Below, piece by piece: positions 3,465 to 40,128 of a stretch of 63,918 nucleotides of DNA. The notes beneath the pieces are model-generated. The model worked only from the letters and a program-made list of their open reading frames with translations. It was not told the origin of the DNA and made no database searches. The stretch is from NCBI RefSeq assembly GCF_008520305.1, contig NZ_ML703264.1, positions 21,697 to 85,614 of the forward strand. Reading direction: 5' to 3'. This stretch comes from Mesorhizobium sp. SARCC-RB16n. GTDB lineage: Bacteria; Pseudomonadota; Alphaproteobacteria; Rhizobiales; Rhizobiaceae. Both the position numbers and the translations under genes were made by a program. Position 1 is the stretch's first letter. Every line of letters starts with the position of its first letter.

Positions 3465-3523
3465 TTCATTCTCCTCTGTTGGTCTGTTCTTGTTTTTCTC
3501 AGTGCACCTTTGTCCTGCACTCC

Positions 3524-4996
3524 TCAGCGCATGACGAAGGGATCCGGGATCGGCTCGTCCGACGTCTTGATCCAGACGGATTTCGAGCGCGTGTAATCTC
3601 TGATGGCATCGAGGCCACCCTCGCGGCCAAGCCCGGAATGGCCGTAGCCGCCAAAGGGAACCAGCGGCGACACGGCGCGATAGGTGTTGACCCAGACCAC
3701 GCCGGCATGGATGTCGCGCGCCATGCGGTGCGCCTTGCCGAGACTGCTGGTGAACACGCCCGAAGCCAGCCCGAAGGGCGTGTCGTTGGCGAGGGCCAAG
3801 GCTTGAGCCTCGGTGTCGAAGGCAAGCACGCTCAGCACAGGTCCGAACAATTCCTCGCGCACGCAGGGCAGGTCATTGTCGCCGGCATCGATGATGGTCG
3901 GCGCGTAATAGAAGCCGGTGCCGATGGCAGGCCTTGTGCCCCCGGTGATCATCTTGCCGCCCTTAGCAAGGCTTTCCGCGACAATCTTCTCGATCCAATC
4001 GCGCTGGCGTTGCGTGGCGAGCGGACCCATTTCGGTGGCCGGGTCCTGCGGATCGCCGATCCTGATCGCCTCGGCCTTGCGTTTCAGCCGGGCGAGGAAC
4101 TCGTCCTTCACCGAACCTTCGACCAGCAGCCGCGAGCCGGCGACGCAGCTTTGGCCGGTCGCCGCGAAAATGCCGGCCACCACCGCGTTGGCGGCGCTGT
4201 CGAGATCCGCATCGGCGAAGACGACGACCGGGCTCTTGCCGCCGAGCTCGAGCGTCGTATAGGCGAGATTTTCCGCCGTGTTCCTGACGATCGCACGGGC
4301 CGTGGACGGGCCGCCGGTGAAGGCGACGCGCGAGACCAGCGGATGGCTGGTCAGGCGGCGGCCGCAATCCTGGCCGAAGCCGGTGAGAATGTTGACGGTG
4401 CCTTCGGGAAAGCCGGCCTGCTGGACGAGTTCGGCGAAGGCGAGCAACGGCGCCGGGCCGTCCTCGGAGGCCTTGACCACGACCGTGCAACCGGCGGCGA
4501 GCGCCGGGCCGAGCTTGACGGCGGAGAGGAAGAGCTGCGAATTCCACGGCACGACTGCGGCAACGACGCCTATCGGCTCGTGGCGGATGGTGACGTCGAG
4601 GTCCGCCTTGTCGATCGGCACATGCGCGCCTTCATGCTTGTCGGCGAGCCCGCCATAATAGCGGTAGTAATCGCCCACATAGGCGATCTGGGCACGCGTC
4701 TCGCGAATGATCTTGCCGGTATCGCGCGTCTCGAGTTCGGCAAGACGTCCAGCATTGGCGCCGACGAGGTCGCCAAGTTTGACCAGCAGTTTGCTGCGCG
4801 CGGTGGCGGTCATCGCCGCCCACGGGCCCGAGCGCAGCGCGCGGTGCGCTGCCTCGACGGCGCGGTCGACATCGGCTTCACTCGCCGCCGGCATCCTGGC
4901 CCATAGCGCGCCGGTCGACGGATCGATGCTGTCGAAAGTGACGGACGGCTCGTCGAAGCGACCGTCGATGAAGTTCCTGAACAGGGCGTCGGTCAT
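3524..4996 (-). CDS. NAD(P)-dependent aldehyde dehydrogenase
   Basis: This enzyme oxidises an aldehyde to the acid with NAD(P)+ in the cytoplasm. At 490 residues it has the normal family length. The family motifs are present: PWN (Asn152), cofactor-binding Lys175, FTGGPSTAR around residues 226-234, general base Glu250 in LELGGKS, and nucleophile Cys284 in GQSCVAGSR. It lies between the luciferase-like monooxygenase and the ABC binding protein, ten bases from the former. The likely job is to oxidise the aldehyde released by the monooxygenase from the imported substrate. The best general family match is to betaine- or aminoaldehyde-type dehydrogenases; the exact substrate cannot be read from sequence. 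Confidence 0.92.
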   Translation of the reverse strand: MTDALFRNFIDGRFDEPSVTFDSIDPSTGALWARMPAASEADVDRAVEAAHRALRSGPWAAMTATARSKLLVKLGDLVGANAGRLAELETRDTGKIIRETRAQIAYVGDYYRYYGGLADKHEGAHVPIDKADLDVTIRHEPIGVVAAVVPWNSQLFLSAVKLGPALAAGCTVVVKASEDGPAPLLAFAELVQQAGFPEGTVNILTGFGQDCGRRLTSHPLVSRVAFTGGPSTARAIVRNTAENLAYTTLELGGKSPVVVFADADLDSAANAVVAGIFAATGQSCVAGSRLLVEGSVKDEFLARLKRKAEAIRIGDPQDPATEMGPLATQRQRDWIEKIVAESLAKGGKMITGGTRPAIGTGFYYAPTIIDAGDNDLPCVREELFGPVLSVLAFDTEAQALALANDTPFGLASGVFTSSLGKAHRMARDIHAGVVWVNTYRAVSPLVPFGGYGHSGLGREGGLDAIRDYTRSKSVWIKTSDEPIPDPFVMR

Positions 4997-37425: not shown

Positions 37426-37662
37426 ATGGTGAGGTCGTACTCGCCGGCGACTCGGCCTGTTACGGCAGAGCGCATCGAGCGCGTGCTCGATCGCGTTGCT
37501 GAGATAATCGTGTCGCGAGGCGACAAGGGTGAGGCATGGGTCCCCCTGTACGACCACCTGGAGCGCGCGCTGCAAGACTACCAGGCGAGGAAAGAACGGA
37601 TCGCCATTATACACGAGCGAGTCAAACGATTGCAGGATCGAACGGCAGTGCGATCTTCATAA
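37426..37662 (+). CDS. small hypothetical protein (78 aa)
   Basis: This 78-residue open frame looks protein-like: MVRSYSPATRPVTAERIERV is followed by charged helices (VPLYDHLERALQDYQARKER). AAGAAGGGTGAA precedes the ATG as a ribosome site. It overlaps the 3' end of the convergent integrase gene by 41 bases. I recognise no family; cargo or accessory gene of the former mobile element is the best guess. Confidence 0.5.
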   Translation: MVRSYSPATRPVTAERIERVLDRVAEIIVSRGDKGEAWVPLYDHLERALQDYQARKERIAIIHERVKRLQDRTAVRSS

Positions 37663-38983
37663 GCTCCTCCTGCCACATCTTCATTTCACCGCCTTCGCCG
37701 TATTTCGGGCGGTCGATCGTATGGCCCATCAGCATACGCCGCAGTTCCTCATCGAGCCGTGCGTTCTTCATACGGTCCTCGAAGGAGTGGCGGAGCGAGT
37801 AGAAGGTGTGGTTTTCGGTGGGGAAGAGATTGTGCTTCTTGAAATGCTTATTGACGGCCGCCGATAGCTGCGCCTCGCGGTCCTTGTATCTCGGAAATCC
37901 GTTCGGGTGCTTTTTGAACACCTCAAGAGCGACGCCGACAAGCGGCACCTTTCGCACTGAAGATGCTGTCTTGATCTCGCGCGGATCTTCCGGATCCTCG
38001 CGAGGCTCGACCGAGATGTGCGGTACGTCGTGTTCAAGATGGATCACGCCATCATAAAGGTTCGCAATCTCGCTGGGTCGGCAGCCGGTCTCGACAAACG
38101 CCAGCACGATTCCCCGAGCTTGGTCGTTGAGGTTCTTCAAGGCTCCTGGCGCGAGGATCTTGTCTTTGATCCAGGCGGTTGGGAATGGCGGACGACTGCG
38201 CTTCGATTTGTCGCTAAAGGATAGATCGGCAAACGGGTTCTTTTGCTCAGGGAAGCCCAGATGACGAAAGTAATCTGCGTAGAGCGATCTCAGATTGGCT
38301 ATATTGCGGTTGCCCGTAGAGGCTGAGCGATCGCCAGCGCCCTTCTCCGGCGCCACTCGATCAAGCCAATATTTATGAACCTTCAGCGCGTCTTCGCGCG
38401 TGATCTTGCTCATTGACTTGTCCTCGACCAGTTCGATGAATACATCGACGCTCATCTGCCGCTTGGCCTTCCAGCGCTTGCGCTGATCAGGGCTCTTGGT
38501 GCGCAACTCGTCGCAAACGATCTCGGAGAAATAGAGCTTCAGCGCATCGGATATCTTATCGTCGGGTCGCTCGACCATGCCCGCGACTGCGTCCACCACA
38601 GGCGATTTCGCCGGCTCAGATATCGTGTTTTCGAAGCGCTGTAGGATGTTTTCCAATGGTTCGGCGGTGAGAATTTCGGCCAGCGGCCGATAAACGAATC
38701 CCAGCGACTCGGCGCGCTTGATGGCTTGGTCGTATCGGACGCGCGCCGCCTGTGGATTTTCACCCAGCATCAACGATGCCCACAAAGCATTGTCGGCTGC
38801 CTCGTTGAGATCTCGGGCGGTACGCGCCTTTTTTCGGTCAGCGGTGCCGAGGGCGCGCCGAACGAATGCACCACGCCGGTCGAGGTCGCCGACTTCCTTG
38901 GGAACGCGGCGATAGTAATGGAAATGATCGCCCCTCAGTCGCAGGAAGCGGTCAGGATCTTGCTCTTCACGACGTCGTCCCAT
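37622..38983 (-). CDS. tyrosine-type site-specific integrase
   Basis: This 453-residue phage/ICE-type recombinase would cut and join DNA at attachment sites. The catalytic set is complete: Arg302 (ETGCRPSE), a candidate Lys near 345, His392 and Arg398 (HTFYSLRH), His421 (GHTIDR) and the nucleophile Tyr428. The N-terminal half carries DUF6538-like and core-binding regions (DRFLRLRGDHFHYYRRVPKE). The gene lies 145 bp from the 3' end of tRNA-His on the same strand, the classic position for an element that uses the tRNA 3' end as attB. The accompanying cargo is largely gone. Confidence 0.93.
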   Translation of the reverse strand: MGRRREEQDPDRFLRLRGDHFHYYRRVPKEVGDLDRRGAFVRRALGTADRKKARTARDLNEAADNALWASLMLGENPQAARVRYDQAIKRAESLGFVYRPLAEILTAEPLENILQRFENTISEPAKSPVVDAVAGMVERPDDKISDALKLYFSEIVCDELRTKSPDQRKRWKAKRQMSVDVFIELVEDKSMSKITREDALKVHKYWLDRVAPEKGAGDRSASTGNRNIANLRSLYADYFRHLGFPEQKNPFADLSFSDKSKRSRPPFPTAWIKDKILAPGALKNLNDQARGIVLAFVETGCRPSEIANLYDGVIHLEHDVPHISVEPREDPEDPREIKTASSVRKVPLVGVALEVFKKHPNGFPRYKDREAQLSAAVNKHFKKHNLFPTENHTFYSLRHSFEDRMKNARLDEELRRMLMGHTIDRPKYGEGGEMKMWQEELMKIALPFDPAIV

Positions 38984-39085: not shown

Positions 39086-39128
39086 GCAAATTTCTGTAGT
39101 AAAACCAGATACTTATGGGGAAAGCCGA

Positions 39129-39205
39129 TGGTACCGTTGGCTGGGATCGAACCAGCGACCTCCGGATCCACAATCCGGCGCTCTAACCATCTGAGCTACA
39201 ACGGC
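39129..39205 (-). tRNA. tRNA-His (GTG anticodon)
   Basis: The 77-nt cloverleaf has acceptor GCCGTTG paired with CAACGGT, D-arm TAGCTCAG, anticodon stem CCGGA/TCCGG with loop TTGTGGA (anticodon GTG at plus positions 39169-39171), T-arm GCTGGTTCGATCCCAGC, and an encoded CCA. The first pair is G1-U72, the discriminator is A73 and no G-1 is encoded (the base before G1 is T). That is the atypical tRNA-His type described for a clade of alphaproteobacteria, whose HisRS recognises it differently. Confidence 0.96.
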
Positions 39206-39366
39206 ACGTCTTGACGTTAGTAGCAGGATCGAGGCGGAAGGTTCATCCTCCGCGATCCGCTCTGTCGTTCGGCGATGCGTCCTTACGGGCTTATGGATTC
39301 TAATTCAAGGCTTTTGCAAAGCAAAGGCCACTTCCCCACAGCGGTGCACCTTTCGACAGGCAAAGA

Positions 39367-39398
39367 AAAAGGCCGGCGGGAGGAGGTGCCGGCCTTTT
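39367..39398 (-). terminator. rho-independent terminator of phasin/small RNA
   Basis: AAAAGGCCGGC and GCCGGCCTTTT form an 11-bp stem; on the minus strand it is followed by a run of T. It ends the small RNA and probably the phasin transcript. Confidence 0.85.
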
Positions 39399-39470
39399 CC
39401 TGTTACGAGCCAGCGGGAGGAGGTGCTGGCTGGTCACCCCGGAGGTGGAGGGAGGAGGTTCCACCCGCCG
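39367..39470 (-). ncRNA. three-hairpin CCUCCUCCC small RNA (cuckoo-RNA-like)
   Basis: Read on the minus strand, three hairpins follow one another, each with the identical ten-base loop ACCTCCTCCC on a different stem: GGTGGA/TCCACC (39444-39465), AGCCAGC/GCTGGCT with arms written plus-strand (39408-39431), and AAAAGGCCGGC/GCCGGCCTTTT (39367-39398), the last ending in T5 and acting as the terminator. The loop is an anti-Shine-Dalgarno sequence (CCUCC). Alphaproteobacterial cuckoo RNAs and the CcsR RNAs of Rhodobacter carry CCUCCUCCC in hairpin loops, usually two. It begins about 85 bp after the phasin stop, so it is either a 3'-UTR-derived or an independently transcribed small RNA. Confidence 0.8.
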
Positions 39471-39555
39471 GGTATTCATTTGACCGTCACTATCTCACAT
39501 CTATTTGTCCGACAAAATGCGACCTTTTGTTGCATCCGCGGATGATGCGCAATTA

Positions 39556-40014
39556 TTAGGCGGCTTTGACTTCCTTGATCGCCTTTTCGAAGGCGGTCTT
39601 GATCGGCTTCGAGACATCCTCGGCCGCCTTGGAGGCAACAGCCTGGAAGTCTTTGACCTGCTCGACGCTCAGTTCGACGCGCTTGCGCAGGAACGCGGTC
39701 TGCAGCTCGACGACTTCCGACAGCGACTTGGCGCCGATCAGGGCTTCGAGATGCGAGAAGCCGGCCTCGGCGTTGGCACGCAACGCCGCGATGGTCTTGA
39801 GCGACAGGTCGCTGGAAACAGTCTTGGCGGTTTCGTAGGTCGACTCCAGGGCCTTCTGGGTCTCCTCGGCGCCGGTCTTGAGCTTGGCATAGGCCTCTTT
39901 CGACTGCTCAACGCCCTTTTCGGCGAAAGCGCGCATCTGGTCGGTGGCCTTGGAAGCGTCGAAGCTCGGGAATTCAACGTTTTCGATCGTGTCGGCAGTC
40001 TTGGTCCTGGACAT
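39556..40014 (-). CDS. phasin family protein
   Basis: Phasins coat poly-3-hydroxybutyrate granules and limit their size. This 152-residue, highly helical protein has the phasin_2-type pattern: TDQMRAFAEKGVEQSKEAYA, KALESTYETAKTVSSDLSLK and FSHLEALIGAKSLSEVVELQ, with a Lys/Ala-rich C-terminus ending EKAIKEVKAA. The start MSRTKTADTIE is preceded by AAGGATGG. Its promoter region contains an inverted repeat with two TGCxxxGCA sites that suit the PHB regulator PhaR. Downstream lies the three-hairpin small RNA. It is divergent from the large histidine kinase gene. Confidence 0.93.
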   Translation of the reverse strand: MSRTKTADTIENVEFPSFDASKATDQMRAFAEKGVEQSKEAYAKLKTGAEETQKALESTYETAKTVSSDLSLKTIAALRANAEAGFSHLEALIGAKSLSEVVELQTAFLRKRVELSVEQVKDFQAVASKAAEDVSKPIKTAFEKAIKEVKAA

Positions 40015-40090
40015 TTTCCATCCTTTTTCAGCGGCAGCGGCTTTGACAGAAAGCCGTCTCGTTCATGTATGATGGCAATATAAAGGCAAA

Positions 40091-40128
40091 TTTTGTGCAT
40101 TGCAATATCTTTGTTGCAGTGCACAAAA
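40091..40128. promoter_or_regulatory. TGC-rich inverted repeat, PhaR-like site
   Basis: TTTTGTGCA and TGCACAAAA are exact 9-bp inverted repeats 20 bases apart, and each overlaps a TGCxxxGCA motif (TGCATTGCA at 40096-40104, TGCAGTGCA at 40115-40123). PhaR/AniA regulators of PHB synthesis bind TGC-rich sites of this kind in front of phasin genes. It lies about 80 bp before the phasin start and about 130 bp before the kinase start. Confidence 0.62.

Follow-up and report, generated by a model that had tools for sequence, protein, structure and literature searches.

An ar14-family (cuckoo-type) small RNA linked to a phasin gene in Mesorhizobium

Downstream of a phasin gene in Mesorhizobium sp. SARCC-RB16n, three consecutive hairpins carry the same loop, and the locus raises the question of what kind of RNA they form, how this RNA comes to be made beside (or from) the phasin gene, and what it may act on. 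The window analyzed here is the whole stretch of 63,918 nucleotides (NZ_ML703264.1, positions 21,697 to 85,614), and its numbering is used throughout. Judged by its sequence and structure, the RNA belongs to the ar14 small RNA family, which is of the cuckoo type, and is linked to a phasin gene. The initial annotation placed it at 39367..39470 in the 3′ region of a phasin gene; the locus is right and the extent slightly short, as the Rfam match covers 39365-39476, and the neighbor is indeed a phasin gene (PF09361), but the hairpins lie downstream of its stop codon (39556) rather than inside it. The features of the locus are as follows.

39556..40014, minus strand: phasin gene (152 aa; PF09361, E 8e-15), upstream neighbor on the same strand as the small RNA
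39365..39476, minus strand: ar14-family small RNA (RF02344, full-length match, model positions 1-123 of 123)
39438..39472, minus strand: hairpin 1, with loop ACCTCCTCCC at 39450-39459
39408..39431, minus strand: hairpin 2, with loop ACCTCCTCCC at 39415-39424
39364..39401, minus strand: hairpin 3, with loop ACCTCCTCCC at 39378-39387 and a T-rich run after the hairpin
39132..39205, minus strand: tRNA-His (Rfam tRNA match), downstream neighbor on the same strand as the small RNA

The 63.9-kb window holds the sequence ACCTCCTCCC three times, always on the minus strand and nowhere outside these loops, and shuffled windows contain a mean of 0.18 copies, with three reached in 0/100. The predicted RNA fold has an energy of -65.1 kcal/mol compared with -46.3 ± 3.9 for shuffled sequences (z -4.9; 0/200 as low), and the trimmed RNA reaches z -5.9. 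In the minimum-energy fold the motif is unpaired in the hairpin loop of all three hairpins, and no two of the three stems are alike in sequence. These results confirm the original observation of three minus-strand hairpins sharing one loop, ACCUCCUCCC. The T-rich run after hairpin 3 also fits the proposal that the last hairpin doubles as a terminator, and hairpin 3 is likely the terminator of both the small RNA and the phasin transcript. A simple scan for terminators with loops of 3-8, to which hairpin 3 itself is invisible, was negative for the minus strand from the phasin stop to hairpin 3.

When all 4227 Rfam families were searched, two matches in the window exceeded their thresholds: a tRNA and RF02344 (ar14, the alpha-r14/NfeR1 family), the latter scoring 67.6 bits where the gathering score is 58.8 (E 4.7e-10). 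CcsR1 (RF02791) scored 31.6 bits against a gathering score of 65.3, below the cut-off. Small RNAs of the ar14 family are about 115-125 nt long. In the window RNA, each of three hairpins exposes an unpaired CCUCCUCCC, and its fold and motif count give adjacent hairpins with a common CCUCCUCCC loop, in a number within the 2-4 of the cuckoo family. The published descriptions, as far as the available text of each source goes, give ar14 three hairpins with CCUCCUCCC unpaired in each and with very different stems (PMC10746234, PMC7143759), S. meliloti models with three and with four hairpins (PMC3927594), 2-4 hairpins for the cuckoo family (PMC4504443) and, from coordinates, a length of 122 nt for NfeR1 (PMC7143759). 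Because of the Rfam match and these descriptions, the window RNA is of a known kind and its third hairpin is normal. Taken by itself, the small RNA is an unremarkable copy of a family already described, and the earlier suggestion that three hairpins depart from a norm of two falls away, since two is the CcsR form.

The same arrangement recurs throughout the genus. The best 80 of 225 loci were chosen by phasin similarity alone (77 titled Mesorhizobium, three with vaguer titles), and the order phasin - ar14 - tRNA-His is found in 78/80, the remaining two (L084, L147) being cut by contig ends. Three exact copies of CCTCCTCC are present in 77 of these best 80 of 225 loci and tRNA-His in 78; one substitution in loop 2 of L124 is the only exception not due to a contig end. 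The window and the 80 fetched loci make 81 Mesorhizobium-type loci, 79 of them complete: CTCCTCCC occupies all three loops in 79/79, window included, and three identical copies of ACCTCCTCCC occur in 65/79. A search of 61 genomes (37 of the genus) gave three motifs between phasin and tRNA-His in 30/30 of the best phasin matches, in a set of loci that shares species with the set of 80. The place of ar14 between the phasin gene and tRNA-His is fixed. The motif is absent from a Mesorhizobium plasmid copy of the phasin gene (L067). Within the genus the stems of hairpins 2 and 3 are almost invariant as well, so that a contrast between stem and loop appears in hairpin 1 only (stem about 0.90, loop 1.00).

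The flanks of the locus have features of their own. An integrase-like gene (window 37622-38983), in which DUF6538 and Phage_integrase score just below the Pfam cut-offs, adjoins tRNA-His, and a match to it is present in 13 of the best 80 of 225 relatives; nine of the 13 matches cover at least 233 aa at 81-85% identity and start at locus positions 3505-3548, shortly past tRNA-His. The gene looks like part of an integrated island that uses tRNA-His. A search for the attachment repeat of such an island revealed no exact repeat of at least 16 nt of 39101-39215 elsewhere in the window. Upstream of the phasin gene, at 40077-40128 on the minus strand, lie a TGCA-rich inverted repeat, which we take to resemble PhaR/AniA-type sites, and a 9-of-12 match to a sigma-70 promoter (TTGCAA-N17-TATATT).

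Outside Mesorhizobium the unit is found at a part of the phasin loci. A phasin match was obtained in 115/151 genomes of the family, and the other-genus set consists of the best-scoring phasin per genome in 108 of these 115, leaving out two genomes of the window's genus and five weaker matches (G086, G089, G138, G151, G161). tRNA-His lies within 500 nt of the phasin gene in 101/108 of these loci. At least one CCTCCTCC follows the phasin stop in 42/108 (19 loci with three, 12 with two and 11 with one), and the motif is absent after the stop in 66/108. RF02344 was above threshold in 18/20 other-genus loci scanned, 19 of the 20 having been chosen as carriers, and fell below it in L162 (three motifs) and L165 (no motif); a further set of 20 loci gave 14 with the family, comprising 13/13 Mesorhizobium loci and 1/7 loci that had been classed as degenerate or lacking the element.

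The pattern of change in these genera separates stems from loops. An alignment of 39 rows was built from 29 other-genus loci carrying two or more motifs (31 such loci less the incomplete L183 and L229; the 11 one-motif loci are likewise omitted), nine Mesorhizobium loci and the window. Both sides of the pair have changed in 18/26 pairs (7/7 in helix 1, 5/7 in helix 2 and 6/12 in helix 3) and 94% of cells remain paired. The covariation score is 0.426, compared with 0.211 for shuffled alignments and at most 0.130 when the alignment is slid, and 0/500 shuffles scored as high. Hypervariable stems that retain their pairing, as described for ar14, are thus present here (18/26 double changes; 0/500 shuffles). 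For the window and the 29 other-genus rows, stem identity is 0.44, 0.65 and 0.83 in hairpins 1, 2 and 3, and loop identity is 0.99, 1.00 and 0.80 in loops 1, 2 and 3, the latter partly by selection of rows for their motifs, a selection that does not affect covariation; loop 3 is altered or shortened in 10/30 of these rows. The earlier claim of selection on a single-stranded anti-Shine-Dalgarno loop is supported, as stems covary across genera (18/26) and loops are kept in 79/79.

The same comparison bears on the idea that the hairpins are a mere terminator or mRNA-stability structure of the phasin gene, with loops that have no role in trans. Many printed loci without the motif have a plain terminator-like hairpin at the place of ar14 (by eye, uncounted), and in S. 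meliloti strain Ak57 (L066, one locus), where the order PAS-domain protein gene - phaP1 - tRNA-His is retained, no ar14 but only a terminator-like hairpin lies between phaP1 and tRNA-His. One hairpin is enough for a terminator, however, and a fixed loop is unneeded, whereas the loops are retained in all 79 complete Mesorhizobium-type loci while stems covary across genera; a structure without a role in trans is accordingly quite unlikely. In seven other loci (L171, L172, L180, L185, L206, L239, L241), phasin 3′ regions hold seemingly part-decayed units in which at least one loop is lost or altered, possibly as intermediate or eroding states.

A phasin tree suggests how carriers and non-carriers are related. 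The tree has 110 rows, seven long branches being left out (including one carrier, L227), and its supports are rough. One clade of 64 rows (96/87) unites all 41 short-spaced carriers of the tree and the nine Mesorhizobium rows, with 14 of the 64 lacking the motif. Mesorhizobium forms one group (99/91) within a 22-row clade (99/92), beside 12 short-spaced carriers and one non-carrier, and in a first quick tree of all 117 rows it was again one group (96) among short-spaced carriers. The simplest reading is a single origin as a phasin 3′ UTR, followed by several losses and, later, by a longer spacer in Mesorhizobium; counts of gains and losses are rough, as they come from the gene tree of one short protein.

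Spacing points to the source of the RNA. Among the 42 carriers outside Mesorhizobium, 39 have their first motif 22-47 nt past the phasin stop; in the three others, whose first loop seems altered or missing, the distance is 66-74 nt. The corresponding distance in Mesorhizobium is 86-100 nt (78 loci measured), and in the window a 79-nt spacer separates the phasin stop from the small RNA. Because a stem arm and a short leader precede the loop, there is almost no room for a UTR promoter in the short-spaced genera; a promoter inside the coding end of the phasin gene could still serve them. The unit lies on the same strand between the stop codon and the likely terminator of the gene, as is characteristic of a 3′ UTR-derived RNA. 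In the other genera it appears to be the phasin 3′ UTR with its terminator, and the spacing makes an origin from phasin mRNA likely there. The 79-nt spacer of Mesorhizobium could hold a separate promoter. Read-through from phasin is expected in any case, because the scan detected no terminator ahead of the hairpins.

Two features of the Mesorhizobium spacer are relevant to this point.

39515..39535, minus strand: near-invariant element ATGCA(A/T)CAAAA(G/C)GTCGCATTT, which contains TGC-N11-GCA (alignment columns, 79 loci)
39492..39497, minus strand: conserved TRNGAT, a putative and weak -10 candidate, 17 nt after GCATTT (column counts)

TGC-N11-GCA is present in 78/79 Mesorhizobium-type loci (the exception, L085, is one base shorter) and, over the 120 nt that precede the first motif, in 0/42 other-genus carriers. 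Mean column conservation over 79 loci is 0.94 in the element compared with 0.66-0.73 in the rest of the spacer. When up to 3 mismatches are allowed, the element has a single match per genome, at the phasin locus, in 5/5 genomes of the genus, and its RNA fold is not beyond chance (z -0.64). As it occurs once per genome and has no RNA fold beyond chance, the element is more like a protein-binding DNA site, possibly that of a regulator. According to the available text of PMC10746234, NtrC binds the nfeR1 promoter of S. meliloti, and its putative motif there is TGC-N11-GCA with an A/T-rich region; the Mesorhizobium element has the same geometry. By this analogy, NtrC may be guessed to bind the element; occurrence once per genome speaks neither for nor against a degenerate NtrC site. 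The element probably gives additional, possibly nitrogen-linked, control in Mesorhizobium.

Searches for known promoter types were negative. No consensus match to a sigma-70 promoter was found on the minus strand of the spacer, and scoring of upstream regions for CTTGAC-N16-18-CTATAT gave a mean of 6.7 compared with 7.1 for shuffles, so that a sigma-70 promoter was rejected and any promoter in the spacer is a putative one. The nfeR1-type promoter expected of an NfeR1 orthologue (CTTAGAC-N17-CTATAT and the LsrB box TGCA-N6-GCAT) was not found either: exact matches in the 140 nt before the first loop number 0/79 for TGCA-N6-GCAT, 0/79 for CTATAT and 1/79 for CTTAGAC, and on the first of these counts an LsrB box as in nfeR1 was rejected.

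These data leave room for two different accounts of the Mesorhizobium RNA. It may be an autonomous small RNA gene with a regulated promoter of its own in the spacer, for which phasin is merely a neighbor. The near invariance of the element over 79 loci beside an otherwise variable spacer, its lack of an RNA fold beyond chance (z -0.64), the position of TRNGAT 17 nt after GCATTT and the geometry that it shares with the reported nfeR1 NtrC site (PMC10746234) argue for such a gene, to which we give nearly an even chance, given that promoter consensus scoring is no better than for shuffles, that phasin read-through is expected for want of a terminator before the hairpins and that TGC-N11-GCA is found in 0/42 other carrier loci. 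Alternatively, the RNA could be purely a 3′ UTR product of phasin mRNA, released by RNase E like CcsR1-4, with the spacer element acting as a processing or stability signal. CcsR1-4 provide the precedent, as RNase E releases these RNAs from the 3′ UTR of ccaF1 mRNA (PMC8625941, PMC10253847, in the text available), and the ccaF1-CcsR1-4 arrangement resembles that of phasin and ar14; the short distance of 22-47 nt in 39/42 non-Mesorhizobium carriers points the same way, and tandem ar14 arrays in Mesorhizobium likewise follow DUF1127 genes (three loci checked). The spacer element of Mesorhizobium is conserved, yet its RNA fold is not above chance, and a pure 3′ UTR product is a substantial possibility that falls somewhat short of even. 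The history that would join the two accounts, in which ar14 arose once as a phasin 3′ UTR and terminator and Mesorhizobium later inserted a private promoter, turning it into a separate and perhaps NtrC-linked small RNA gene, is proposed tentatively, as a conjecture a little less than evenly balanced.

As to function, the three loops are similar to the anti-Shine-Dalgarno end of 16S rRNA. They would pair with ribosome sites of the GGAGG type in other mRNAs and block translation of these mRNAs, as published experiments have shown for the family member NfeR1 of S. meliloti. Hairpin 3 would end transcription. The RNA of most carrier genera probably belongs to the 3′ UTR of phasin mRNA or is released from it, and through this origin its dose would follow phasin expression; in Mesorhizobium, the TGC-N11-GCA element probably adds a further, possibly nitrogen-linked, level of control. 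Transcription, release and trans-blocking of ribosome sites are all things that we infer from sequence, and so is the link of the RNA to PHB. The explanation as a whole (an ar14 member, an anti-Shine-Dalgarno blocker, a phasin 3′ UTR link and control through the Mesorhizobium spacer) is held jointly with good confidence.

Single-loop duplex energies give some indication of targets. For the ORF before ntrC, taken as ntrB, pairing is only moderate, at -14.0 kcal/mol in 1/4 and -11.2 kcal/mol in 3/4 Mesorhizobium genomes, against a background of 970 candidate starts in the window (many of them not real genes) with a median of -8.6 and a best value of -20.6. The RNA could in principle repress the phasin that is encoded on the same transcript or next to it. 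At -7.1 kcal/mol, however, pairing of the loop with the start region of phasin is weaker than that of the median candidate start, so that phasin is an unlikely target and was rejected as such on duplex energy; autoregulation of this kind is very improbable.

The phasin-linked unit is one of several ar14 copies in these genomes. Each of the 61 genomes of the genus searched has an ar14 match (1 to 9 each; over the cut-off in 60/61), with at least three matches in 60/61 and a single match in one (G025). Family-wide, a match is present in 146/151 genomes and is over the cut-off in 137; the nearest genome, G001, has six matches, five of them over the cut-off. The copies whose sequence was inspected have loops of the same kind, so that what sets the copies apart seems to be chiefly the place and time of their production; given the multiple matches per genome, the phasin-linked copy may be redundant. 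Tandem ar14 arrays occur in Mesorhizobium relatives (L001 1631-2026, also L008 and L017), where the first loop motif lies 20-24 nt past the stop of a small gene and a second, similar small gene lies just upstream (three loci); DUF1127 was confirmed by Pfam in the two L001 ORFs before the array.

In the available text of a survey of M. huakuii 7653R (PMC5596092), none of 40 small RNA candidates is named ar14. Five of them (MH_s3, s15, s31, s36 and s37) are unannotated minus-strand candidates with both flanks on the minus strand, and MH_s31, at 104 nt sequenced, is nearest in length; none of the five could be mapped to the locus described here. Phasin and CCUCCUCCC were not found together in the literature searched, which did not extend to the main family papers, so that a claim of novelty for this setting would be unproven. 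What may be new is the placement of ar14 in phasin 3′ UTRs throughout a clade, together with the element specific to Mesorhizobium.

If the comparative reading holds, one effector RNA has been placed in varied host transcripts (a DUF1127 gene, a phasin gene and transcripts from promoters of its own), and each copy would inform a common set of ribosome sites of a different cell state; the copy at phasin would couple carbon storage to the translation of uptake and nitrogen genes. A single origin as a phasin 3′ UTR would mean that, in a large clade of the family, an anti-Shine-Dalgarno blocker of many mRNAs is tied to carbon storage, and a subsequent promoter in Mesorhizobium would make this a traceable birth of a small RNA promoter from a 3′ UTR. 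The short- and long-spaced versions are natural material for the question of how a 3′ UTR RNA acquires a promoter.

Several known systems resemble the window RNA in part. NfeR1 (Smr14C2) of Sinorhizobium meliloti is like it in length, in its three hairpins, in having CCUCCUCCC in each loop, in its variable stems and in a third hairpin that is the terminator. The loops of NfeR1 pair with the translation start region and NfeR1 represses ntrB, according to the text available (PMC10746234); its promoter as given there differs from the region upstream of the window RNA, which has TGC-N11-GCA and no TGCA-N6-GCAT boxes. The cuckoo RNA family shares 2-4 hairpins, a conserved loop and stems that are not conserved, as described in the accessible parts of two sources (PMC4504443, PMC10253847). 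CcsR1-4 of Rhodobacter sphaeroides (RF02791) likewise combine CCUCCUCCC loops with a location in the 3′ UTR of a protein gene, but their Rfam model has two hairpins instead of three and their host gene is ccaF1 instead of phasin. The tandem ar14 arrays after small genes appear as a rhizobial version of the ccaF1-CcsR arrangement, and a DUF1127-linked cuckoo locus is labeled CIN1 in Reinkensmeier and Giegerich 2015, as cited in the available text of PMC10253847. MmgR (alpha-r8) of S. meliloti, also a small RNA with a predicted anti-Shine-Dalgarno loop, is tied to PHB and phasins and is under control of the nitrogen and carbon state, as far as the available text relates (PMC7143759); unlike the window RNA, it belongs to a separate RNA family with a separate structure and acts on PHB from a locus of its own.
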